Shown here: one piece after another, positions 34,057 through 57,110 of the stretch
Layout: each line of letters starts with the position of its first letter
Numbering within the stretch: position 1 is the first letter of the stretch
Assembly: GCA_027624855.1 (NCBI GenBank)
Contig: JAQBTQ010000008.1
Location: 1-64,000 of the forward strand
From: Bacteroidota bacterium
GTDB lineage: Bacteria; Bacteroidota; Bacteroidia; Flavobacteriales_D; Sanyastnellaceae
DNA length: 64,000 nucleotides
Reading direction: 5' to 3'
Program-made: the position numbers and the translations under genes
Notes under the pieces: model-generated
What the model was told of the DNA's origin: nothing
The model's database searches: none
What the model saw: the letters and a program-made list of their open reading frames with translations, nothing else

Positions 34057-35193
34057 GTGACCGGGATTTACATTCACATTCCATTTTGCAGAACTGCTTG
34101 TCATTATTGTGACTTTCATTTCTCTACAAACCACAGCACGATGAATGCTATGGAAGATGCTCTTTTGAGAGAAATCGACCTTCATTTAAATGATGATTCT
34201 ACCGGGGATTTGGATGTGAGCAGTATTTATTTCGGAGGGGGTACACCCTCTGTCTTTCCTTCACTCGGTATCAAAAAAATAGTGGATCGATTCCAGCCCT
34301 ATCTCAGAAACTGCAAGGAAATCACGCTCGAGGCCAATCCCGAAGACATCACCACAGAAAAATTAAAGCAATGGCAAGATCTGGGCATCAGTCGTCTATC
34401 AATTGGGATTCAATCGTTTGATCAAAGTCGGCTGGACTGGATGAACCGAAAACATTCTGCAAGAGAGGCTGAACAAGCTGTCCTGCTCGCGGAAAAAGCC
34501 GGCTTTCAGCATCTTTCTGTGGATTTGATCTACGGAATTCCTGATCGAAGCAATCCATTTGAGTCCGAAGTATCTCGGTTGTTGTCTCTTCCTGTAGACC
34601 ATGTATCCGCATACATCTTAACCGTTGAGCAACAAACAGTGTATGGAAGCCGGGTTAAAAAAAATCTAGAACTAGCGCCTGATGAAGACGTGGTGCAGCG
34701 GGAGTACACCGTACTGTGTGAAGGGCTCCAAACCGCTGGATTCAATCATTATGAGGTTTCAAACTGGGCGAAGCCCGGTGGATACGCAATACACAATCAA
34801 CATTATTGGTCGGGACTGCCGTATTTGGGTATTGGTCCTGGGGCACACGGCTTCCTAGAAAAGACGCGCTTTGCGAACGTTTCCAATAACAGGCAGTACA
34901 TCCAGTCGGTGCTTTCAGCAACTGAGATAAACGAATTGCCCCGGGAAATCGAAAACCTCACGCGTGCTGATCGATACAACGAAACCATCATGACGGGCCT
35001 CAGAACAAAGCGAGGGATTTCGCTTGCACAGCTTTCTGCAGCGTTTCAAATGCGTCCTGACGTTGAAACAAAGAAAGAGTGGGGCCAAATCATCAGCCGG
35101 GGCCAGCTAGTGACTCAAGAGCTTGGGCGGTTCCGTATCCCAGAAGAGCACTGGCTATTGGCCGATGGCATAGCATCCGACCTGTTTGTCTAG
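34057..35193 (+). CDS. hemW: HemW-like radical SAM protein (heme chaperone)
   Basis: The protein has 378 residues. The start is GTG at 34057, because GIYIHIPFCRTACHYCDFHF is the canonical HemW N-terminus. The CxxxCxxC cluster binds the [4Fe-4S], and the following FxF replaces the extra Cys-Phe pattern. YFGGGTPSVFPS and LEANPEDITTEKL, then ISRLSIGIQSFDQSRL, are radical SAM core motifs. The HemW_C domain begins near residue 290. HemW binds heme and hands it to respiratory proteins; it is often mis-named coproporphyrinogen oxidase. GAACTTTG ends 4 nt before the GTG. The stop shares CTAG with the convergent transporter gene. Confidence 0.93.
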   Translation: MTGIYIHIPFCRTACHYCDFHFSTNHSTMNAMEDALLREIDLHLNDDSTGDLDVSSIYFGGGTPSVFPSLGIKKIVDRFQPYLRNCKEITLEANPEDITTEKLKQWQDLGISRLSIGIQSFDQSRLDWMNRKHSAREAEQAVLLAEKAGFQHLSVDLIYGIPDRSNPFESEVSRLLSLPVDHVSAYILTVEQQTVYGSRVKKNLELAPDEDVVQREYTVLCEGLQTAGFNHYEVSNWAKPGGYAIHNQHYWSGLPYLGIGPGAHGFLEKTRFANVSNNRQYIQSVLSATEINELPREIENLTRADRYNETIMTGLRTKRGISLAQLSAAFQMRPDVETKKEWGQIISRGQLVTQELGRFRIPEEHWLLADGIASDLFV

Positions 35194-36095
35194 CTCGTGG
35201 GCTTGGGGTTTTTAATGATTCCGTCAATAAATACTGCCCCGACGATGATGGCGGCGCCTAAGTAGAACCCTCCGCTCATTCGCTCCTCTTCACCGAATAT
35301 CAGGGCCGCAAGAACAATGGCATAAATGGGTTCCATGTTAATGGCTAAAGACGTGGTAAATGGACTGAGGTTTTTCATCACCTCAATGCTCATCAAGAAA
35401 GCAAACGACGTTGCAATTGATGCAAGCAGACCCAACCATATCCAGTCTTGATGGGGCACCACCCAATGATTCAGGTCAAATCCTTTTCCTTGAATAAAAA
35501 ACAACACCGCGAGGGCTAACGCTGCGCTCAGCAACTCCACCCGAGTTAAGTTGCCGCTATCGTGGGAGCGAATAAACACTGAATTCACCGTCGCAAAAAT
35601 GGCCGCTAAACCAGCAGATATCAACGCTAGCCCAATGCCCTTATAATAGCTGCTTGAGTCTAGGGTTTCGGTCCCTGTTGATGAATCCCACAACAACACC
35701 AACAACCCTACAATAATCACCAATCCAAGCAAAACCTCCCGCACATCCAAACGACGCCGGTGGATAACAGGCTCCAGAACACTGACAAATACAGGAGTTG
35801 TCGCAAGGGTGGCTAAAGCGACCGACACATTGCTCACCTTAATGCTCGCGAAAAACGCTATCCAATGCGCTGCAGCAACACACCCCACTGCCGCAACTTT
35901 GATCAAAACAGACGGTGAAAAGCGTTGGATTTTACGCTTCGTTAATAACCAAAGCCAAACCAGACCACCCCCTAAAAACACGCGCCAAAACACCAAGCGT
36001 TCTGCATCCAGCGTAATCAACTTGCCCAAAATTCCCGTGAAACCGAAAATCAAGACAATAAAATGCAGCATCCAGGTGCTTTGCCGTCGATTCAT
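35190..36095 (-). CDS. EamA/DMT-family transporter
   Basis: The protein has 301 residues. Ten hydrophobic helices in two EamA repeats are visible, for example FIVLIFGFTGILGKLITL (helix 1) and YAIVLAALIFGEEERMSGGF, where the second-repeat signature ends in the helix-9/10 turn. Members export amino acids, metabolites or drugs across the inner membrane. The substrate is not predictable. The start MNRRQSTWML at 36095 is preferred over an upstream GTG, because TAGATTTG lies 5 nt before it. The stop overlaps hemW's by 4 bp (CTAG), so two convergent genes meet without a terminator. Confidence 0.92.
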   Translation of the reverse strand: MNRRQSTWMLHFIVLIFGFTGILGKLITLDAERLVFWRVFLGGGLVWLWLLTKRKIQRFSPSVLIKVAAVGCVAAAHWIAFFASIKVSNVSVALATLATTPVFVSVLEPVIHRRRLDVREVLLGLVIIVGLLVLLWDSSTGTETLDSSSYYKGIGLALISAGLAAIFATVNSVFIRSHDSGNLTRVELLSAALALAVLFFIQGKGFDLNHWVVPHQDWIWLGLLASIATSFAFLMSIEVMKNLSPFTTSLAINMEPIYAIVLAALIFGEEERMSGGFYLGAAIIVGAVFIDGIIKNPKPTS

Positions 36096-36100
36096 TCTGG

Positions 36101-36108
36101 CAAATCTA
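36101..36108 (-). promoter_or_regulatory. promoter -7 element TAGATTTG of the EamA gene, near-leaderless
   Basis: An exact TAnnTTTG match on the minus strand, with 5 nt (CCAGA) to the ATG at 36095. Only 4 bp separate it from the opposite-strand core of the next gene. Confidence 0.5.
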
Positions 36109-36109
36109 C

Positions 36110-36124
36110 CCGTAACTTCGTTAT
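36110..36124 (+). promoter_or_regulatory. promoter region with CCGTAACTTCGTTAT
   Basis: The core TAACTTCG (36113-36120) is a TAnnTTCG variant, 27 nt before the ATG at 36148. The whole 15-mer recurs exactly at 41290-41304, again just ahead of a plus-strand gene. Confidence 0.45.
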
Positions 36125-36147
36125 CCCACACCTGCACAAACAAACAA

Positions 36148-37920
36148 ATGAAATCGTTTTATTCTCTTGCGATTGCCCTCCTTTTCTGCGCAAGCGGCGG
36201 TGCATTAAAAGCACAAATTCAATTGGATAATCAATTCAATGATTGGACCAATCAACCTCACGTTACGGACACCGAAGGCGGACCCTTTACCTCCGTGAGC
36301 ATCGCGAGCAATGTGGACTGGCTCTATTTGCATGTCGAGCTTCTCAATGAGGTTGCGCTTGACGAAAACATCCTTCCAAATGACTTGCACATTCTGCTCG
36401 ATTTAGATGATGATGTGTCTACAGGGGTGGATTACGCGAATCAAGGGTTGGGGGTCGATTTGCTGATCAACTTAGCCGATCGCCAAGCCATACGATACAC
36501 CAACGGCTCGGGAATAGAAACCTTCAATGAGGTTGGGATGCGGGTCTCACCTACCTACAGCTCAAAAGAGTTCGAAATTGCGTTCGACAGGGGCTTGACC
36601 CAAGTTGTCGGTCCCAATGTGCGCATAGCCTGGTATGATAGTGATTCACAATCCGGATTTCCTGAAGGAGGGGTGTCCCATACATTGAATGAAAACATTG
36701 CCCCATGGATTCCCATGTCGTTGGATCGTCCCTCAGGCACTTTGAATCGGGTCGCGTTTTGGAACATGAATGGGCGAATGGATCAGCCCAATGCTCAGGC
36801 AGCTATGGAACGAATTCTGCAAGCTGTAAGTCCTGATATCATCGGCTTCTCCGAAGTTTCTGATGTTTCTGCCAATGCGGTTGCTAACCTGCTCAATGAG
36901 TGGATTCCGGTCGAGAATGGTGGTGCATGGAACGTGGTTAAAGATGATTGGGATTTGATGGTGGCATCAAAGGGTGAAATCCTTTCTTCTTATCCCTACG
37001 TCAACCGACAATTCCCCACCCTGGTCGAAGGCAATGAAGAATGGGGGGTGCCCCTGTTGTTTACGAGTAGCCACCTGAAGTGCTGCGGAGGGGCTTCAAA
37101 TGAAGCCCAACGCCAGGCGGAAGCCGATGAATACATGGCTTTTGTCCGGAATGCAATTGATGGTGAAGGTGCATTGGAGCTCGCTCCCAACACTCCAATC
37201 ATCTACGGGGGTGATTTAAACATGGTTGGGCTCGACAATCCCATTTACACCTTGGTGACTGGCGATATCAGCAACGAATCTGCGCATGGCCCCGACTTCA
37301 ATCCTGATTGGGATGGAACAACTTTCACGGAATGGAACTTGCTCCAGACCGACGATCCATTTGACTTCACCTGGATGAGTTCATCCATGAATTCTGAATG
37401 GATGCCTGGCAAGTTGGATTACCTCATCACCTCTGACGCTTCAGCAGAATTAAAGGGTGGGTTCACGCTGCGAACAGAAGAAATGAGTGCGGACCGGCTT
37501 GCGGCGTTCGGTCTCGAGGCGAGCGATGCGTTGGACGCGTCCGACCATTTTATTGTGGTCGGCGATCTCGGCTTAGGCGACTTCATTGGTATGGCGCCTG
37601 ACACCGATGGCGATGGGGTGAATGACTACGAAGACAATTGTCTTTACGCAGCAAACCCCGATCAAAACGACTTCAACGTGGATGGGGTTGGAGATGCTTG
37701 CAGCGATTCTGACGGCGATGGATTAAGCGACAGTTTAGAAATTACCGTCTATGGTTCAGATCCTGAGTCATCCGACTCGGATGGTGATGGCGTAGTCGAT
37801 GGGCTCGAACTGTGCGTTTGCAGCGATAACAACCTTTGTCCTGGCGACCTCACAAATGATGCCGTCATTACAGTTGCTGATCTTTTGGTTCTCCTCGGGC
37901 TATTTGGCGCGATTTGTTGA
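36148..37920 (+). CDS. secreted endonuclease/exonuclease/phosphatase-fold protein with thrombospondin-3 repeats and dockerin-like end
   Basis: The protein has 590 residues. The signal peptide MKSFYSLAIALLFCASGGALKA fixes the start. Residues 25-185 form a beta-rich ligand-type domain with acidic LDLDDDVSTGVDYAN. Residues 195-480 carry the EEP fold: RVAFWNMNGR, IIGFSEVSD, the GGDLNMVG Asp-Asn pair, and the final SDHFIVVGDL His. The nucleophile-activating residues look intact, so phosphodiesterase or nuclease activity is plausible. Then come calcium-binding DTDGDGVNDYEDNC and SDSDGDGLSD repeats. The last 25 residues, CPGDLTNDAVITVADLLVLL, look like a single dockerin-type loop. There is no typical T9SS domain. 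It converges on the next gene with a 2-bp gap. Confidence 0.82.
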   Translation: MKSFYSLAIALLFCASGGALKAQIQLDNQFNDWTNQPHVTDTEGGPFTSVSIASNVDWLYLHVELLNEVALDENILPNDLHILLDLDDDVSTGVDYANQGLGVDLLINLADRQAIRYTNGSGIETFNEVGMRVSPTYSSKEFEIAFDRGLTQVVGPNVRIAWYDSDSQSGFPEGGVSHTLNENIAPWIPMSLDRPSGTLNRVAFWNMNGRMDQPNAQAAMERILQAVSPDIIGFSEVSDVSANAVANLLNEWIPVENGGAWNVVKDDWDLMVASKGEILSSYPYVNRQFPTLVEGNEEWGVPLLFTSSHLKCCGGASNEAQRQAEADEYMAFVRNAIDGEGALELAPNTPIIYGGDLNMVGLDNPIYTLVTGDISNESAHGPDFNPDWDGTTFTEWNLLQTDDPFDFTWMSSSMNSEWMPGKLDYLITSDASAELKGGFTLRTEEMSADRLAAFGLEASDALDASDHFIVVGDLGLGDFIGMAPDTDGDGVNDYEDNCLYAANPDQNDFNVDGVGDACSDSDGDGLSDSLEITVYGSDPESSDSDGDGVVDGLELCVCSDNNLCPGDLTNDAVITVADLLVLLGLFGAIC

Positions 37921-47664: not shown

Positions 47665-49197
47665 ATGGACATCCAAAGCATACTCAAGACACTAAAAATT
47701 GAAAGCCACAATCCCGGGGTAATGATCGGAACAGAATCTTTCGGTTCCGGACCAGTCATCAATTCCATTTCTCCTGTTGATGGTCAAAAGATTGCATCAT
47801 TGACAAGCGCCACCAAAGAAGATTATGAGCGCGCGGTGGCTGCAGCACAAAATGCTTTTGTATCGTGGCGCAACACACCGGCTCCCAAGCGAGGAGAAGT
47901 TGTCCGGCAATTTGGTGACGCCCTCAGACAAAAAAAGGATGCGCTTGGAGCCCTGGTCAGTTATGAGATGGGTAAATCCCTGCAAGAAGGGTTGGGTGAG
48001 GTCCAAGAAATGATCGACATCTGTGATTTTGCGGTAGGACTTAGCCGACAGCTCTATGGAATGACCACTCACTCAGAGCGCCCTGAACACCGCATGTTTG
48101 AACAGTATCACCCACTGGGTGTTGTGGGAATCATTTCTGCATTCAATTTCCCCGTCGCGGTTTGGGCGTGGAATACGGCACTCGCATGGATTTGCGGGGA
48201 TTCCTGTCTTTGGAAGCCTTCTGAAAAGAGTGCTTTGTGCTCCATTGCTTGCCAGCACATTTGGAATGAGGTAGCCACAGCCAATGGTGTGCCAGCTGAA
48301 CTTTCTTGCGTGGTGAACGGATACGCTGACATTGGAGAAATGATCAGCTCAGACGGCCGAATCCCATTGGTCAGCGCAACAGGTAGTACCCGAATGGGAA
48401 AGGCGGTAGGACAAACCGTTGGGGCTCGACTCGGTCGAGCGTTACTTGAGCTTGGGGGTAACAACGCAATCATCATTACCCCCGACGCTGACTTGGAAAT
48501 GGTGGTTCCTGCAGCGGTGTTTGGCGCGGTTGGCACGTGTGGGCAACGCTGTACTTCGACCCGTCGCTTGATCATCCATCGATCCATTTATGGCCAAGTA
48601 AAAGACGTTTTGGCCAAAGCTTATGGGCAACTTCGTATCGGCAGTCCTTTGGATGAAAGCAATCACATTGGCCCGCTCACCGATGAAGCTGCCGTCGACA
48701 TGTACCTCAACGCTTTACAAGCCGTAAAAGATGAGGGTGGAACCTTTGTTGTTGAAGGAACGAAGCTAACTGGTCCAGGATACGAAAGTGGGTGTTACGT
48801 TTCGCCCTCCATCGCGGAAGCGACCAATGACATGGCAATCGTACAACACGAAACATTTGCCCCATTGCTTTTTATCATGCCTTATGACACCCTAGAAGAG
48901 GCTATCGCAATGCAAAATGGTGTAGCACAAGGTTTGTCCTCAGCAATCATGACCAACAACATGCGCGAAGCCGAACGGTTTTTATCTGCCTCAGGATCCG
49001 ACTGTGGAATCGCCAATGTCAATATCGGCACATCGGGAGCAGAGATAGGGGGTGCGTTTGGTGGAGAAAAAGAGACAGGTGGTGGGCGTGAAAGCGGATC
49101 AGATGCATGGAAAGCCTACATGCGCCGTCAAACAAACACTGTCAATTATGGGACATCGCTTCCGCTTGCGCAAGGCATCAAATTCGATTTGGGTTAA
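47665..49197 (+). CDS. aldehyde dehydrogenase, ALDH7 (aminoadipate semialdehyde) type
   Basis: The protein has 510 residues and an NAD-dependent dehydrogenase fold. Catalytic motifs are GVVGIISAFNFPVAVWAWNT (cofactor/oxyanion Asn), LLELGGNNAIIITPDADLE (general-base Glu) and GTCGQRCTSTRRL, where the nucleophile is Cys296. The pattern PAPKRGEVVRQFGDALRQKK and the GQRCTSTRRL form point to ALDH7/antiquitin, which oxidises alpha-aminoadipate semialdehyde (piperideine-6-carboxylate) in lysine breakdown. Other semialdehydes remain possible. The lipoprotein gene follows after 7 bp and is probably co-transcribed. No other lysine-degradation gene is in view. Confidence 0.93.
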   Translation: MDIQSILKTLKIESHNPGVMIGTESFGSGPVINSISPVDGQKIASLTSATKEDYERAVAAAQNAFVSWRNTPAPKRGEVVRQFGDALRQKKDALGALVSYEMGKSLQEGLGEVQEMIDICDFAVGLSRQLYGMTTHSERPEHRMFEQYHPLGVVGIISAFNFPVAVWAWNTALAWICGDSCLWKPSEKSALCSIACQHIWNEVATANGVPAELSCVVNGYADIGEMISSDGRIPLVSATGSTRMGKAVGQTVGARLGRALLELGGNNAIIITPDADLEMVVPAAVFGAVGTCGQRCTSTRRLIIHRSIYGQVKDVLAKAYGQLRIGSPLDESNHIGPLTDEAAVDMYLNALQAVKDEGGTFVVEGTKLTGPGYESGCYVSPSIAEATNDMAIVQHETFAPLLFIMPYDTLEEAIAMQNGVAQGLSSAIMTNNMREAERFLSASGSDCGIANVNIGTSGAEIGGAFGGEKETGGGRESGSDAWKAYMRRQTNTVNYGTSLPLAQGIKFDLG

Positions 49198-49204
49198 ACG
49201 ACCC

Positions 49205-50374
49205 ATGAAAAACACCTTGTACCTCAGCTTCTTGCTCATGGCATGTCAAACCGCGCCATCTATAGAAGATAGGGGGCTTCTCTCTTTTGAACTCAACGAC
49301 AGTACGACTGCCGATTTCTTCGTGACCCAATTCCCGGATTATTGGGAAATCGAAAACGGTGAGGAGGTGTTGAAAATCGCCAAAATCAACGATGACGAAT
49401 GGAAGGTTCCTGTGTTCAATGGCTCCTTCAATGTTGAAACAAAAGGGCCTCGGCTTACTGGATTTTGGGTTGATTCGTTACGCAAAACAGCCGATGACCA
49501 GTATTATCGCGTTCCTTTTACTGTAACCAAGGATTCTGAACAACCTCAGCCTTCACAATCCATACAAGGAACCTGGGGTGTTTGGTTCGGGTCAAACCCT
49601 TCGGAGTCTGCTACAGCACAAATGGATCTGTGGACCAACGAGGAACGGGTACAAGGTACGATTCGAACACCGACAGGGGACTATCGGTTTTTAAGCGGGG
49701 ACTACCGGGGAGGCAAACTAAAGTTACAGACTTTTGATGGGGCACATTTATTTCTAGTTGAAGCCGATTTTGTAGATAGCACTTGGACCAATGGTGTTTT
49801 TCTGAGTGGAAATCATTATCAAACACCTTGGATCGGCAAGCCAGCTCGACCCTGGGAAGCCACTGTTTCTCCCGAAAAAATCAAGGCACCAATAGACTCG
49901 CTTTATGTTCGATACCTTGACGAACAGGGGGTAACCAAAACCCATTCTTTACAACCCGACTCCAACCGTGTTTTTGTCGTGGATATTTTAGGAACATGGT
50001 GCCCTAACTGCATGGATGAAATACGATTGCTTCAATCCTCAATTAACCAAGAGGAGCATGATGTATTATCTGTTGCTTTCGAGCGGCCCGCTGAGCCGAA
50101 TAAAGCCCTTTTGCGCATTGAACATTACAAGGCTGAAATGAACATTAAGTGGCCTGTGATTTGGGGGGGCAAGGCTGATAAGCAACACGCCGCCGACGCC
50201 TTTCCTTTCCTAGAAAAGGTCATCAGTTTTCCTACAACCCTTTTCATACACCACGACGGCACAGTCTATGTCCATAGTGGTTTTAATGGACCAGCAACCG
50301 GACATCACCATCAAGCAGAACAAGCTGTATTTGCAAGTCTCCTGCGTTCAACTACTTTTCCGGAAAGTCGTTAA
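49205..50374 (+). CDS. thioredoxin-like (TlpA/ResA-type) lipoprotein
   Basis: The protein has 389 residues. The start at 49205 is set by the lipoprotein signal MKNTLYLSFLLMAC (acylated Cys14). A longer in-frame reading runs through the preceding gene and is rejected. Residues 20-255 form a beta-rich N-terminal domain resembling the DUF4369-type regions found before thioredoxin folds. From about residue 258 comes a thioredoxin domain with VDILGTWCPNCMDEIRLL, an active CxxC (WCPNC). FPFLEKVISFPTTLFIHHDG provides the cis-Pro (FPTT). It should act as a periplasmic disulfide reductant. The 3' end overlaps the convergent RpiB-M28 frame by 23 bp. Confidence 0.87.
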   Translation: MKNTLYLSFLLMACQTAPSIEDRGLLSFELNDSTTADFFVTQFPDYWEIENGEEVLKIAKINDDEWKVPVFNGSFNVETKGPRLTGFWVDSLRKTADDQYYRVPFTVTKDSEQPQPSQSIQGTWGVWFGSNPSESATAQMDLWTNEERVQGTIRTPTGDYRFLSGDYRGGKLKLQTFDGAHLFLVEADFVDSTWTNGVFLSGNHYQTPWIGKPARPWEATVSPEKIKAPIDSLYVRYLDEQGVTKTHSLQPDSNRVFVVDILGTWCPNCMDEIRLLQSSINQEEHDVLSVAFERPAEPNKALLRIEHYKAEMNIKWPVIWGGKADKQHAADAFPFLEKVISFPTTLFIHHDGTVYVHSGFNGPATGHHHQAEQAVFASLLRSTTFPESR

Positions 50375-52304
50375 TTCGATCGACCACGATTCTTTCGTCT
50401 TGGTTCAATAATTGCCAGGCAGTGTGAAAAACGAGTTTTCCAATTTCAGCTGTTTTTGGATAATGAATTTTTTCAGGATCGTCTCCTGGTTGATGATAAT
50501 CCTCGTGCACTCCGCTGAAATAAAAAATCACTGGAATGTTGTTCTTGGCAAAATTGTAGTGATCTGAGCGGTAATAGAAACGATTGGGGTCATCAGGAGC
50601 ATTGAATGTATAGTCGAGCGCTAAGCCTGTATGGTTGTTGTTAGCCGCCTCACTGATTTCATGCAATTCTGATGATAATTTATCTGAGCCAATCAAGTAC
50701 ACATAACGATCATTCTCAGCATGCGCCTCATCCACTCGACCAATCATATCAATATTCAAATTCGCGATGGTCTGTTCAAGCGGCCAAACAGGATGATCCG
50801 CATACCATTCACTCCCAAGTAATCCTTTTTCCTCACCAACAACGGTCATCAATAACACGCTGCGACGTGGACCATTGCCTTCACCCACAGCTTTCATAAA
50901 CGCCTCTGACAACTCCAACACCGTCACTGTACCTGAACCATCATCGTCCGCTCCATTGTGAATCTCTCCATCGATGATTCCAACGTGATCATAATGTGCC
51001 GTAACCACGAGTAACTCCTCTTTCAAAATGGGATCACTTCCAGGTATGTATCCTAACACGTTGTTTGCTATTACTAAATCAGAAGTCCCATCCAACGTAA
51101 AATTCCAACGTATACCTTGCAATTCAATCGGGTCATACACTCGTCCTTTCTGCAAACTCTTCTCCCATTTTTTCCAAGATTTCATTGGTGTATTCACCCA
51201 CCATTCTTCCACAGATGAAGCTTGAATAAGAAATGTTGGAATCCGCGTTCCTTCTGTCACCTCTGGATCTTCGCGATTCAATGTCAGCGACTCCCTAGAT
51301 AACCAAGGTCTCATACGACTGCGAATCATTGATAAATCTTTACCAACTAAAATGATTCCAGCAGCACCTGATGTTGACGCTTTCATTCTCAAGTCATTTA
51401 AACCCAAGCGCCACATGGTTTCTCCATCCTCTTCATGGGCTTTTACTACGACCATCTTGTTTTTTACATCCGCTCCATCCAATTGATTTATGTCATGAAT
51501 TACAATCATTTCGATTTCATTCATTTTATCGACCTTCAATCCGGGATAAAAAATAAAGTCTTCTAAAAACTCCAAATCCACAGTTCCTGCGGTAGCAGAA
51601 CCGCCTTTGATTTGTGAGCGAATCAACTCGACTGGTTGATAATAAGAATCATCGGAGTAAGGTTGAATTCCAATGGATTTAAAGTGATTAGCTATGTATT
51701 CAGCAGCTTTTTCAGCGCCTGGTTTGCCTGTTTCGCGACCCTCAAATTCATCACTTGCTAAAACTTCCAAGTGTGTCCTTAAATCTTCTGGTGTAATTGA
51801 ATTCGCATAGGATGACGCATCTAGTAATTGAGCGTTTATCCCCGAAAAACAAGCAAATACAAATCCCACTGCCATGCACGCGATTTTATTGATGCGACGC
51901 TCGTGTCGACCACCTTCAAACTCCTCATTCATATACTCCTTTAATATTTCAAGCCCTTCATCTTTTGATACGAAACGTGCAGGAATACAAATCACATTTG
52001 CATTGTTATGTTGCTTTATTAAGGCCGCAACCTCTTTATTCCAAGCCAAACCAGCACGTACTTCCGCGTGTTTGTTAGCCGTCATAGCCACTCCATTCGC
52101 AGATCCACAAATCAGAATTCCAAAATCACATTTTCCTGAAGCAACATCTTCAGAAACTGCATGTGCCGGATCCGGGTAATCCATACTTTCATGATCGTTC
52201 GTACCTTGATTGGTCACTTCATATTCAAGACTTTTTAAATACCGAACCAAGTGATTTTTTAAATCCGTTCCCGCGTGGTCGTTGCCAATTGATACTCGCA
52301 TCAT
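50352..52304 (-). CDS. rpiB: RpiB (ribose-5-phosphate isomerase B) joined in frame to an M28 metallopeptidase
   Basis: A 650-residue open frame. Residues 1-143 are RpiB: VSIGNDHAGTDLKNHLV, the Cys-containing GILICGSANGVAMTANKH, RAGLAWNKEVAALIKQHN, and the usual family end FEGGRHERRINKI. With no stop the frame continues into ACMAVGFVFACFSGINAQ, which with the preceding RRINK looks like a signal peptide, then an M28 aminopeptidase (residues about 165-650). The M28 zinc ligands are present: AHYDHVG, NGADDDGSGT, VGEEKGLLGS, NLNIDMIGR and the late YHQPGDDP His. RpiB is cytosolic and M28 would be exported, so either the peptidase starts internally (ATG at about 51874), or a stop was lost, or the fusion is real. 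Base composition is AT-rich. Confidence 0.8.
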   Translation of the reverse strand: MMRVSIGNDHAGTDLKNHLVRYLKSLEYEVTNQGTNDHESMDYPDPAHAVSEDVASGKCDFGILICGSANGVAMTANKHAEVRAGLAWNKEVAALIKQHNNANVICIPARFVSKDEGLEILKEYMNEEFEGGRHERRINKIACMAVGFVFACFSGINAQLLDASSYANSITPEDLRTHLEVLASDEFEGRETGKPGAEKAAEYIANHFKSIGIQPYSDDSYYQPVELIRSQIKGGSATAGTVDLEFLEDFIFYPGLKVDKMNEIEMIVIHDINQLDGADVKNKMVVVKAHEEDGETMWRLGLNDLRMKASTSGAAGIILVGKDLSMIRSRMRPWLSRESLTLNREDPEVTEGTRIPTFLIQASSVEEWWVNTPMKSWKKWEKSLQKGRVYDPIELQGIRWNFTLDGTSDLVIANNVLGYIPGSDPILKEELLVVTAHYDHVGIIDGEIHNGADDDGSGTVTVLELSEAFMKAVGEGNGPRRSVLLMTVVGEEKGLLGSEWYADHPVWPLEQTIANLNIDMIGRVDEAHAENDRYVYLIGSDKLSSELHEISEAANNNHTGLALDYTFNAPDDPNRFYYRSDHYNFAKNNIPVIFYFSGVHEDYHQPGDDPEKIHYPKTAEIGKLVFHTAWQLLNQDERIVVDRINDFPEK

Positions 52305-52679
52305 TCAAATTTTGAGGCAAGTTAATTCACAATGAACCGGTGGATAGCACAATTTCTTGGTTGAAAATTCAGAATAAGTTCATTTCTCATTTTCACACTT
52401 ATAACGCAATTGAATTTGGGAAATGAAAATCCAAATTTCCACGACTCAATTTCTCCTTCAACTTATACCGATGAAAAGAATAATTATTGACCACTCACTT
52501 CATCATAAAATATGAGAACACCCCTTCATCCACACTTGGTTAATAACCATCTTTAAGGCTTGAAAATCAATATTCATTTATCAGAAACCCTGTTCAAAAT
52601 CATCCTATCAATTGTTCAGAACTGAAAAAATCACCCGGCATTGAAATACCTTTTCAACAGAATTAACAAGCCTATTACG
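52305..52679. other. AT-rich intergenic region
   Basis: 375 bp without a coding frame I can support. It is clearly more AT-rich than most of the window. On the minus side CAAAATTTG lies just before the RpiB start, with the second ATG 4 nt after TTTG. Towards the MORN gene I find no exact TAnnTTTG. There is no tRNA and no strong hairpin. Confidence 0.6.
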
Positions 52680-54215
52680 ATGTATTTATTTTCTAAGAAA
52701 AGAATATTATTTATGTATTGCTTGTTGATGACAATTTCTGGGTCTTCTCAGAAAAACGGTGTTGATTGTGATTGGACTGTGTATACTTTTCCGAATGGAT
52801 CAAAAGCAAGTGAAGGATGTTTAGTCAACGGAAAACCAGAAGGAATTTGGAAGGCGTACCATACGAACGGTCAAGTAAAAAGTGAAGGAGGGAGAATAAA
52901 CCATTTACTTGACGGAACTTGGTGTTTTTATGATAGCTCAGGAATAAAACTGAGAACCGTCGATTATGTAGCTGATAAGAAAACGGGCTGGGAAAGAACT
53001 TACCATAAGAATGGTATGGTCAAACTTGAATTGAGTTTCAATGAAGACGTTCAGGTCGATCGTACAAATTTTTACAACGAAAAAGGCCAAATCATCGAAA
53101 CGATACCAATTAAAAATGGATTAAAAGAGGGGAGGGGTAAACGTTTTGGAAGTGATGGACGTACGATAGCATTTCTAGAATATAAAGCTGGAATTCTAGA
53201 AAACGTTGAATCATTTAACGAACTCAATGATCAAGGACAAAAAACCGGGCTTTGGTTTTTTTGGAATGAATCTGACGTCGTTATTGAAAAAGGAGAATGG
53301 AAAGACGATGTCAGGCATGGACTTTTTGTTTTCTACAACAAATGGGGTCAGTTGGATCGTGTAGAATATTATCAGAACGGTGTACTTATTGAAGAGGAAG
53401 AAGAAAAAGTGAATGTCGATGTGCGAACGACAGAGCATGCGAATGGCACCATTGCAACTAGAGGGGTTTATGTAGATGATCTAAGAGAAGGTGTGTTTAC
53501 AGAATATGATGAAGATGGAAACATTATTAGTGGTGCAGTATATGAAGGGGGAACACAAATAGCCGAGGGAATTACCAATCTTGAAGGCAAGCGAATTGGA
53601 ATTTGGAAGGAGTTTTATCCTACTGGAGAAGTAAAGGTAATCGGCCAGTATGAGAATGGGATGAAATCCGGTCGTTGGGAATATTTTGCCGAATCAGGTG
53701 AACTCATTCAAGAGGGTAGTTTTTTAGAAGGTGAATTGCATGGTAATTGGAGATGGTATTACCTCGATGGGGATCTACACAGAGACGAGTCATATCGCAG
53801 GGGAAAAGAGAATGGATTATTTCAAGAATGGAGCGAATCTGGCGAATTACTCGTGAAAGGAGAATATGATAATGGATGGAAACAAGGGTTTTGGATATTG
53901 GATGTAAATGACCACCGAGAAGAAGGTGTGTACCTGGATAATGAACGCCACGGAGACTGGCTTCATATTTATCAAAATGACATTGAGTTGTTTTCGGGTA
54001 GTTATGAAATGGGAATTCCAACCGGAAAACACATTTATCGATCAATCCAAGGTAACTTAGAACGAGTCGAACGTTGGAACCTTGGACAAAAACATGGAAA
54101 GTGGATGTATTATGGACCCCAGCAAACGGTTGAACGAGTGCTGGAATACAAAAGAGATCAACTCATTCGCTTCAATGGTCAAAAAGTGCAATCCAACGAA
54201 AAAATCAGTGATTGA
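52680..54215 (+). CDS. MORN-repeat exported protein
   Basis: A 511-residue protein from the ATG at 52680. An upstream TTG at 52641 would lengthen an otherwise good signal peptide (KKRILFMYCLLMTISGSSQ). The body is about fifteen copies of a MORN-like repeat of roughly 23 residues with the pattern NGxxxGxWxxY: GKPEGIWKAYHTNGQVKSEG, GMKSGRWEYFAESGELIQEG, and GELHGNWRWYYLDGDLHRDE. Bacteroidota proteins of this type are often labelled YwqK-family antitoxin, but no toxin is near. The repeat makes an extended beta-sheet for protein or lipid contact. It ends one base before a possible TTG start of the PAS kinase. Confidence 0.85.
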   Translation: MYLFSKKRILFMYCLLMTISGSSQKNGVDCDWTVYTFPNGSKASEGCLVNGKPEGIWKAYHTNGQVKSEGGRINHLLDGTWCFYDSSGIKLRTVDYVADKKTGWERTYHKNGMVKLELSFNEDVQVDRTNFYNEKGQIIETIPIKNGLKEGRGKRFGSDGRTIAFLEYKAGILENVESFNELNDQGQKTGLWFFWNESDVVIEKGEWKDDVRHGLFVFYNKWGQLDRVEYYQNGVLIEEEEEKVNVDVRTTEHANGTIATRGVYVDDLREGVFTEYDEDGNIISGAVYEGGTQIAEGITNLEGKRIGIWKEFYPTGEVKVIGQYENGMKSGRWEYFAESGELIQEGSFLEGELHGNWRWYYLDGDLHRDESYRRGKENGLFQEWSESGELLVKGEYDNGWKQGFWILDVNDHREEGVYLDNERHGDWLHIYQNDIELFSGSYEMGIPTGKHIYRSIQGNLERVERWNLGQKHGKWMYYGPQQTVERVLEYKRDQLIRFNGQKVQSNEKISD

Positions 54216-54236
54216 TTGAAAAAGGTTGATGAACAT

Positions 54237-57110
54237 ATGGTTTCTTGGATCGATGTATGGTCCGATCCAACGGTGGTATTCAACCAAGAAGGAGGGGTGA
54301 TTTATTCAAATCCGCCTGCCGTTCATTTATTTACAAATGAAGGTGAGGCCGAGATAGAATCTTTGGGTAAGAAAATCATTCATTCTGGTGATTTCAAACC
54401 ATTTCATTGGACTCAAAAGGACAATCAAGTTGAATACAGTGTGCATTCAGGGGAGGTGAATGGGTGTATTTATGCAACACTAAAAGATGCCAGATCAGTT
54501 GATGAAATTCGGGCTGCGTTAAATTATAATCAACTATTGTACAGTGGTTTAGCGAACGGAACCATCGAAGGATTAGCATTGATAAACAACGAATCAACGC
54601 TGGATTGTAATGCACAGATGTTTGATGTGATGGGGGTGCACAGCTTGCAAGAGTTGAAATCAGTGAATTGGGAAAAACAACTAGGTAGTAGAAACTGGAG
54701 AAGGTTGCTTTTGAAATTGGAGGAACGTGTGGAGTTCGAATTTGTCAATTGCTCTGGTCGTACGATGGTGGTTGAAGGAAAACTATCGCAAATCAAAGAC
54801 GGAACGAAGCATTTTGCGCTGGCTTTGCTCGATATCACCAACAGTAAAAGAATCTCTAAAGACTTGCTTCAAACGAAAGAGCGGTTCAGGTTATTGGTAG
54901 AAACCAACCCTTTCGGGTTATTCTTGATTGTGCAAGGAAAGGTGAGGTATTCTAACCAGGCGGGACTGGAAATATTGGGATTGCAAGAAGAGGAAGAAGT
55001 GTTTGATCAGGCGATACTAGAGTTTTTTTCGGTATCGGATCGTCAACCACTCATGGAAGACATGGAGAAAATTCTCTCCGGAGAAAAAACATCCTACATG
55101 GAGGTGCAGCTTGAAAAAGCAGGGTTGGTCACCAAAGATGTAGGGGTTCAAATGGTGTTGTCTTTTTTCGATAACCAACCAGCTGTTCAGATGACAATCA
55201 ACGATTTGTCGACCCAAATGCAGTTGGTTCGCGAGCAGATGCGAAGGACGGCCGTGGAGGAGTCCAATGAATTATTGAAGGCAGAGATTACACAGCACCA
55301 ACGGACCCAAAAACAATTGGAGCGAGCAGAGCGATTTAATCGTTCGATCATTGAAAGCTCAATTGATATGATCATGGCGTTCGATGGTGAAGGCAGAATC
55401 ATTCAATTCAATCATGCCGCTTCAGTGGAATTTGGTTTGACCTCTGATGATGCGCTGAAATTGAATGCGCAAAACCTACTTCATGAACCAGACGATTTTA
55501 AGTCCATTCAAAAGGATTTAAGAGAAAAACGTTACTACGCAGGAGAGGTTCCGGGCATTCGATCAACTGGAGAGGTTTTTCAAATGCTTATTTCAATTGC
55601 AACCCTGCAGAATGAAGATGGTGAAGGAGCGGGTTTTGTGCTTGTGGGCCGAGATATCACAGACATCAGATTGGCAGAACAAGAGCTGAGAAGCAGCGAA
55701 GAACGTTACAGGGATATTCTGGAGAACGCAAGTGATTTAGTCTTTTTAGCCAATGCAGCAGGGGTAATTGAATATGCGAATCCCGCATTTTTTAAAACAC
55801 TTGGCCACTCAGGAAAAACACTGCGCACTACGACCATTCAAGACATTGTTCAACCCCCACCTGGAAAACAAAAAGAGCATTGGATGGAATGGTTGGCAGG
55901 TGATAACAACGAATTGGTCTTTAAGCACCAAAACGGTGAGCTATTAAAAATGTTGGGCGGAGGTTCAGTGCAGCGTAACCCGAAGGGCAAAGAGACAGGA
56001 CTTCGGTGCATTTACCTTAATATTTCTGAGGTTCGTGCCTACCAAAAAGACGCGAAGGAGAAATCAGCTAAGCTTCAGTCCATTTTTAACTCCACGCGAT
56101 ATTTATTGATGTTCACGATTGATAAGTCGTTCAAAGTCACATCGGTAAATCAAAACTTGACGCGGGTGCTGAATGATCAATTTGGCTTCGAAACAATTGT
56201 TGGGACCCCAATCATTGAAGTGCTTAAGGAATTCACTTCGGAAGAATTTTACAAGGGACAATTTCAGCTGTTCATTCGGGCAGCACAAGGGGTACAACAA
56301 CAATTTGAACTACCCCTGGTAAATCAATCAGGGGAGGTGGTGTGGTATCAGCTTTTTGTAAATCCCGTCCAATATGACGAAGGCACTGAGGAATTAAGCT
56401 GCATCGCTTATGACATCACCGAGCGCAAGGAGATTGACAATCAAATTCGGGAAGCGCTCAAGGAAAAAGAAATTTTGCTTCAAGAGGTTCATCACCGGGT
56501 GAAGAACAACCTGCAAGTCATCTCGAGCATGCTGAACCTGCAAAGACGCTTTGTAGACGATTCGAAAATGCTGGAAATTCTCGAAGAGAGTCAGAATCGT
56601 ATTTCAACCATGAGCTTCATTCATGAAAGCCTTTACCGAAATTCTGATTTTAGTTCGATTGGGTTCTCAGAGTATTTGGAACGACTCACCCAAAACCTGA
56701 TTCATAGTTATTCCAATGTGTCCGCTCGTGTTGAGCTAGTGAGCAACTTGGATGATGTACGGATCAACCTAAAACAAGCCATCCCATGCGGATTGATTGT
56801 TAACGAACTGGTTTCGAACTCTTTGAAATACGCTTTTAAAGGCAGGGAATCAGGAAAAATTTTCCTTCGTGTGGAGATGAAAGGGGACAAACTTGAAATA
56901 GAAGTGGCCGATAATGGGGTGGGATTGCCGGATAATTTTGATTTCTCTTCCAACGAAAGCCTAGGTGTTTACCTGGTGCAGGCGTTGACCGACCAATTGG
57001 ACGGAATCCTCGTTGTGGATAACAAACACAGCGATAATACGTTAGAAGTACACGATGGGGCATCATTTTTGGTTAGTTTTACCCCGTTGACCGAACTAGA
57101 AACCACTTGA
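54237..57110 (+). CDS. multi-PAS cytosolic histidine kinase, HisKA_2 family
   Basis: A 957-residue protein from the ATG at 54237; a TTG at 54216 directly after the MORN stop would add 7 residues. No membrane helix is seen. About six PAS-like units follow one another: DPTVVFNQEGGVIYSNPPAV, LFLIVQGKVRYSNQAGLEIL, DMIMAFDGEGRIIQFNHAAS, and LVFLANAAGVIEYANPAFFK are the clearest, each ending with ITD- or ITE-type motifs. The kinase core is HisKA_2: LLQEVHHRVKNNLQVISSML (phospho-His near residue 752), then VNELVSNSLKYAFKG and VADNGVGLPDNFD. The next gene, 1 bp on, is a LytTR regulator, so this is a two-component pair with many cytosolic inputs. Confidence 0.92.
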   Translation: MVSWIDVWSDPTVVFNQEGGVIYSNPPAVHLFTNEGEAEIESLGKKIIHSGDFKPFHWTQKDNQVEYSVHSGEVNGCIYATLKDARSVDEIRAALNYNQLLYSGLANGTIEGLALINNESTLDCNAQMFDVMGVHSLQELKSVNWEKQLGSRNWRRLLLKLEERVEFEFVNCSGRTMVVEGKLSQIKDGTKHFALALLDITNSKRISKDLLQTKERFRLLVETNPFGLFLIVQGKVRYSNQAGLEILGLQEEEEVFDQAILEFFSVSDRQPLMEDMEKILSGEKTSYMEVQLEKAGLVTKDVGVQMVLSFFDNQPAVQMTINDLSTQMQLVREQMRRTAVEESNELLKAEITQHQRTQKQLERAERFNRSIIESSIDMIMAFDGEGRIIQFNHAASVEFGLTSDDALKLNAQNLLHEPDDFKSIQKDLREKRYYAGEVPGIRSTGEVFQMLISIATLQNEDGEGAGFVLVGRDITDIRLAEQELRSSEERYRDILENASDLVFLANAAGVIEYANPAFFKTLGHSGKTLRTTTIQDIVQPPPGKQKEHWMEWLAGDNNELVFKHQNGELLKMLGGGSVQRNPKGKETGLRCIYLNISEVRAYQKDAKEKSAKLQSIFNSTRYLLMFTIDKSFKVTSVNQNLTRVLNDQFGFETIVGTPIIEVLKEFTSEEFYKGQFQLFIRAAQGVQQQFELPLVNQSGEVVWYQLFVNPVQYDEGTEELSCIAYDITERKEIDNQIREALKEKEILLQEVHHRVKNNLQVISSMLNLQRRFVDDSKMLEILEESQNRISTMSFIHESLYRNSDFSSIGFSEYLERLTQNLIHSYSNVSARVELVSNLDDVRINLKQAIPCGLIVNELVSNSLKYAFKGRESGKIFLRVEMKGDKLEIEVADNGVGLPDNFDFSSNESLGVYLVQALTDQLDGILVVDNKHSDNTLEVHDGASFLVSFTPLTELETT

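Follow-up and report, generated by a model that had tools for sequence, protein, structure and literature searches.

We found a single reading frame on the minus strand of the window (the whole stretch of DNA that was analysed, 64,000 nucleotides) in which ribose-5-phosphate isomerase B (RpiB) runs through a putative internal signal peptide into an M28 peptidase. This gene is likely to be a conserved natural fusion that supplies one precursor for two compartments, and we infer that the precursor is cut by signal peptidase I. The features referred to below are, in window coordinates:

50352..52304, minus strand: single fused ORF (RpiB, predicted internal signal peptide, M28 peptidase), 650 aa, stop-free
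51882..52304, minus strand: RpiB part, residues 1-141 (Pfam PF02502, NCBIfam NF004051/TIGR00689, solved relatives)
51882..51914, minus strand: basic C-terminal tail of RpiB, GGRHERRINKI, residues 131-141, predicted to stand in for the n-region of a signal peptide
51831..51881, minus strand: hydrophobic core and cleavage region, residues 142-158 (ACMAVGFVFACFSGINA), with a predicted cut before Gln159
51873..51875, minus strand: in-frame ATG, Met144; an ATG lies at this codon in 2 of 44 fused loci
50355..51830, minus strand: predicted mature M28 aminopeptidase, residues 159-650 (PF04389, solved relatives, fold matches)

The frame begins with an ATG at 52304, ends with a TAG at 50352-50354 and contains no internal stop; the uninterrupted passage from RpiB to M28 reported by the first-pass annotation is thus real (650 codons, minus strand, 52304-50352), and the Pfam domains of both enzymes are present. 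The RpiB part matches LacAB_rpiB (PF02502) over residues 4-141 (E 1.9e-51, 174.1 bits vs. a cut-off of 24.7, model positions 1-138 of 138) and scores above the cut-offs of NF004051 and TIGR00689, both ribose-5-phosphate isomerase B subfamily models, while the 'rpiB' equivalog TIGR01120 scores 125.1, below its cut-off of 138.65; the solved relatives are the RpiB enzymes 3he8, 1o1x, 1nn4 and 2vvr. It carries DHAG (residue 9), CGSAN (66), HNNAN (99) and GGRH (131), where DHA, CGS/T, HNxAN and GGRH are what we take to be the RpiB active-site motifs, and all five RpiB motifs tested are kept in 44/44 of the fused loci described below.

The peptidase part matches Peptidase_M28 (PF04389) over residues 415-627 (50424-51062; E 1.5e-37, 129.6 bits vs. 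a cut-off of 21.3). HYDH, ADDD, GEE, DM and YH, presumably the M28 metal-ligand motifs, stand at residues 437, 452, 490, 517 and 601 of the window protein. Across the 44 fused loci, four of the metal-ligand patterns were detected in every locus and two in 42; on inspection of the misses, L051 and L052 still have CHYDH, L051 still has DYHGAGD, and L050 ends at a contig end. The solved relatives of this part are the M28 aminopeptidases 2ek8 and 6hc6, and the best fold matches of the AlphaFold model are 2ek8, BSAP and PaAP. The peptidase part thus resembles in fold and sequence the M28 aminopeptidases with an inserted domain (2ek8, BSAP 6hc6, PaAP 8acr), although identity in the fold alignments is only 17-18% and the window peptidase, unlike them, is encoded behind RpiB. 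The AlphaFold model of the whole protein (mean pLDDT 90.3, pTM 0.72) consists of two confident domains joined by a linker of low confidence at residues 142-156 (pLDDT <50).

A plus-strand ORF (49052-50374) converges on the fused gene, with a 23-base overlap of the two ends at window 50352-50374; by eye it contains a CxxC-type stretch, GTWCPNC, and its part at 49202-50371 has no Pfam match. The divergent neighbours on the other side, both on the plus strand, are a MORN-repeat protein (52641-54215) followed by a PAS-domain histidine kinase (54216-57110).

We searched 114 genomes of the family; junctions were classified by script, some by tblastn, and then recounted, and we left out before counting L117 (the same locus as L024) and L055, L115, L118 and L119 (stretches without RpiB). 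The stop-free RpiB-M28 frame occurs at 44 loci in 43 of the 114 genomes: 19 in g1 (the genus of the window), 10 in g3, 9 in g14, 2 each in g9 and g10, one in g13, and a further one on a g1-like contig in a g14 bin. That bin, G136, is placed in g14 and has two fused genes, L032 (C23) and L042 (C130), one of which groups within g1 in the gene tree; the odd locus probably lies on a foreign contig in the bin. In 57 family genomes rpiB lies next to the peptidase gene as a gene of its own; 4 loci have no RpiB in the fetched stretch, and 10 genomes are unclassified. All 12 order-level outgroup loci examined likewise have the two genes side by side but separate.

We also considered whether the fusion occurs outside the family. 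In a scan of genome contigs, the best 80 loci from named genomes comprised 11 fused, 29 adjacent but separate and 40 without RpiB in the stretch, and the candidate was rejected because all 11 fused loci are from MAGs matching loci or clades of this family. Among named MAGs, the carriers of the fused gene are uncultured Flavobacteriales (one is labelled Crocinitomicaceae), and the fused examples listed all come from draft assemblies, those among named genomes being MAGs throughout. In a survey of 399 genomes of the order, 184 had a match at E 1e-60, and among the matches listed the full-length, stop-free ones all belong to the family of the window; four unusually long frames outside the family were discarded, since RpiB lies there in a different frame with a stop of its own. 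None of 614 matching plasmid records covers 80% of the query.

The natural fusion that the first-pass annotation had offered as one option is therefore borne out by the recurrence of the same open frame at these 44 loci, and for practical purposes this recurrence, in 43 genome assemblies, rules out its alternative of a sequence error. It had proposed to look in relatives for a stop between the two parts, and such a stop is present in the 57 genomes with separate genes; it reflects the ancestral two-gene state, in which the frames overlap or lie a short distance apart, and not an error. Selection points the same way: in 16 close pairs, dN/dS was 0-0.11 for RpiB, 0.03-0.09 for M28 and 0-0.78 for the join. 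Because the ratio is low in both halves, RpiB and M28 are both under strong purifying selection and both enzymes are maintained. An error or a decaying pseudogene, for which the stop at the join of separate relatives could be adduced, retains a negligible probability against an open frame in 43 genomes and dN/dS of 0-0.11 in both halves.

Within g1, the gene is fused in all 19 genomes that have it. RpiB is single-copy in these 19 of 22 genomes and lies every time within the fused frame; in the remaining three (G005, G009 and G019) no RpiB was found and the M28 part is missing too, so that they are uninformative. RpiA (PF06026) was found in 0/22 g1 genomes vs. 8/14 control genomes. A second RpiB copy or an RpiA that would relieve the fused RpiB of its job was thus considered, and none was found in the genus. 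As no other ribose-5-phosphate isomerase was detected in g1, the fused RpiB should act in the cytosol, its isomerase activity being predicted from sequence. We agree with the earlier remark that a sugar isomerase and an exported peptidase need different compartments, and propose that a cut at the internal signal peptide resolves the conflict.

The signal-like hydrophobic stretch noted behind the end of RpiB was recovered at residues 142-158, directly followed by Gln159; its assignment as a signal peptide is based on motif, hydrophobicity and comparison with the separate genes. A Gln preceded by a small residue lies 12-20 residues past the RpiB KI in 44/44 fused loci (the preceding residue is A in 32, G in 8, S in 3 and T in 1; in L033 the assignment is ambiguous between two candidates), whereas such a pair occurs in 8.7% of 20,725 downstream 12-residue windows of the same fused proteins. 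The mean peak hydrophobicity of the fused stretch is 2.40, vs. 2.45 for the signal peptides of separate genes. Those signal peptides have 1-3 Lys/Arg in their first 8 residues (69/69). The 11-residue tail of RpiB has 3-4 Arg/Lys in all 44 fused loci, and because Lys/Arg is absent between KI and Gln in 43/44, this tail is the sole basic n-region of the fused forms. In sequence, the stretch thus has the pattern of a substrate of signal peptidase I under the Q-rule, i.e. a basic n-region, then a hydrophobic core, then a small residue and Gln, although it is short (17 residues in the window protein). In the available parts of two papers, substrates of Bacteroidetes signal peptidase I have Gln directly after the cut, the so-called Q-rule (PMC5837995; PMC10653852). 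The fused loci share with these substrates the order of small residue, cut and Gln after a Sec signal peptide; the substrates described in those parts have N-terminal signal peptides, whereas in the fused gene the signal starts about 130-140 residues into the chain. The genome of the window has a gene for signal peptidase I and one for an M50 site-2 protease; a search for glutaminyl cyclase, a later step of the Q-rule pathway, covered the plant type (PF05096) and did not find it there.

The same stretch could instead be a permanent anchor, in which case the product would be a type II membrane protein that stays uncut, with RpiB facing inward and M28 outward. The orientation of charges, with the basic RpiB tail inside, and the hydrophobicity both fit an anchor, and AlphaFold draws a helix (132-148) from RpiB into the stretch, albeit with pLDDT <50 at 142-156. 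An anchor would, however, not need the small residue-Gln pair, which is kept in 44/44 loci while the stretch around it drifts, and in spacing as well as hydrophobicity the stretch agrees with the signal peptides of separate genes. We therefore regard the uncut form as unlikely.

Under the reading that we prefer, that of a precursor cut by signal peptidase I, one chain would be translated and RpiB would fold in the cytosol, its basic C-terminal tail (GGRHxRRVxKI) serving as the n-region of the internal signal peptide. The hydrophobic stretch would then be inserted into the Sec translocon, the basic tail remaining inside, and a cut by signal peptidase I before the conserved Gln would release the M28 aminopeptidase beyond the membrane. 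RpiB would retain about 17 hydrophobic C-terminal residues and would thus be tethered to the membrane unless an intramembrane protease, e.g. M50, trimmed it.

A signal peptide placed inside a frame was also seen elsewhere in the window: in the longest open frame at 35842-37920 (plus strand), a signal peptide (MKSFYSLAIALLFCASGGALKAQ) lies some 104 residues from the start. We considered a second fusion there and rejected it, as the signal peptide begins with an ATG-Lys of its own and what precedes it in the frame runs antisense to the ORF 35190-36143 (minus strand); the inner ATG is probably the true start.

Two further explanations concern translation at the join. The peptidase might also, or only, be made from an internal start near the join, the RpiB-M28 chain being a by-product. 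The window does have an ATG at codon 144, the one near 51874 which had been suggested as an internal start, many relatives begin the peptidase at an overlapping ATG, and some ATG lies within the stretch in 28/44 fused loci, at the fourth codon past KI in ten of the 44 (mostly genus g3). The suggested start is nevertheless not conserved (ATG at that codon in 2/44). There is no ATG at all between KI and Gln in 16/44, ten of the 44 also lack one from 30 codons upstream, and in three (L021, L034 and L035) ATG, GTG and TTG are all missing between KI and Gln. The resulting product would have no basic n-region in 43/44, and RpiB would stay unreleased because no stop exists. Synonymous divergence at the join is, moreover, not reduced (mean pS 0.337 vs. 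0.324 in RpiB, 16 pairs), for which reason a hidden element at the join was rejected as well. An internal start thus appears decidedly improbable as a general mechanism, although individual species with an ATG in the stretch, that of the window among them, might use one. Within g3, in the region of loci L125-L130, the fourth codon after KI is commonly ATG (KIACAM...).

Programmed frameshifting, finally, could let translation end at an off-frame stop close to the join and so free RpiB. The TAA which, according to the first-pass annotation, a one-base shift would expose is real in the window, and off-frame stops near the join exist in 39/44 loci in frame +1 and in 24/44 in frame +2. None of them is conserved, however: a stop at the codon and frame of that TAA is seen in 19/44, no position is shared by more loci than this, and by eye no slippery motif recurs among the junctions listed. 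Frameshifting is in our opinion very improbable.

The separate rpiB-M28 pairs of Bacteroidota relatives, which resemble the fused gene in the genes involved, their order and their strand, suggest how the fusion may have come about. They keep the rpiB stop and a start of the peptidase's own, and most have their own signal peptide with a basic n-region, whereas in the fused forms this start and the basic n-region are gone. An ATGA common to the stop of rpiB and the start of the peptidase gene is seen in 28 of the 57 separate family genomes, 41 of the 57 have an in-frame peptidase ATG within the last 15 bases of rpiB, and the commonest RpiB end is Cys-Ser (20/57). In the fused loci the Cys after KI is kept in 41/44 and the hydrophobic core follows directly, which identifies the fusion point as the old overlap. 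The ancestral state would accordingly have been two neighbouring genes, often with the four-base overlap ATGA, where a frame-changing event would have eliminated the stop of rpiB and, with it, the peptidase's start codon and basic n-region. Some order-level separate peptidases resemble lipoproteins by eye.

A gene tree of 111 rows (L026 and L114 were omitted as too short) needs two changes between the separate and the fused state. A clade of 42 rows from g1, g3, g9, g13 and g14 is entirely fused (SH-aLRT 97), and the fused g10 pair (G115/G118) is sister to the 12 separate g10 rows. Based on these sequences the fusion probably arose twice, and two fusions seem likelier than one fusion with a re-split in g10, because all separate g10 loci (14, each with the ATGA overlap) share this overlap with deeper relatives. 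A constraint to a single fused clade was not clearly rejected (AU p 0.056), and the tree contains long branches, including that of the window itself (0.48).

A more far-reaching reading, which we put forward tentatively and with rather less than even confidence, is that of an obligate two-compartment polyprotein in free-living bacteria. The catalytic tail of RpiB would double as the n-region, signal peptidase I would control the release of both the aminopeptidase and the only detected, membrane-tethered ribose-5-phosphate isomerase, and the arrangement would have had two independent origins from an overlapping pair. If cleavage is confirmed, the gene would offer a clean natural case of an overlapping gene pair turning into a polyprotein. 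It would then also follow that the n-region of a signal peptide can be taken over from the C-terminus of an enzyme unrelated to it, and that synthesis of a secreted peptidase is tied 1:1 to that of an essential metabolic enzyme. Such genes would, in addition, lend themselves to the study of bacterial internal signal peptides and of what becomes of signal-peptide remnants left on cytosolic proteins. Annotation pipelines would label genes of this kind cytosolic, as they have no N-terminal signal peptide, and the exported enzyme would be missed.

No report of an RpiB-M28 fusion was found in the open-licence literature, and two known systems invite comparison. FbcH of Bradyrhizobium is a cytochrome b/c1 polyprotein from which two proteins arise when signal peptidase cuts at an internal signal peptide. 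It resembles the fused gene in being a single bacterial gene whose chain has an internal signal peptide, and in sequence the fused gene displays the features of this type: a single frame, two complete mature proteins, an internal signal peptide and no conserved separate start. The products of FbcH, however, share one membrane complex, whereas in the fused gene the exported peptidase comes after a soluble housekeeping enzyme of the cytosol, and the two have no known shared function. The second system is core-E1 of hepatitis C virus, where, in the available part of the source, signal peptidase separates the two proteins and the first remains anchored until signal-peptide peptidase frees it (PMC5402940). 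As described there, the end of a protein on the cytosolic side acts as signal peptide for the protein after it, as is predicted for the fused gene; core-E1 is viral and eukaryotic, unlike the bacterial RpiB-M28, and the tail of core is trimmed, whereas trimming of RpiB is only possible. Two points are new relative to both FbcH and core-E1: a soluble housekeeping enzyme comes first and is unrelated to the product that follows, and the n-region is supplied by the catalytic tail of this enzyme.
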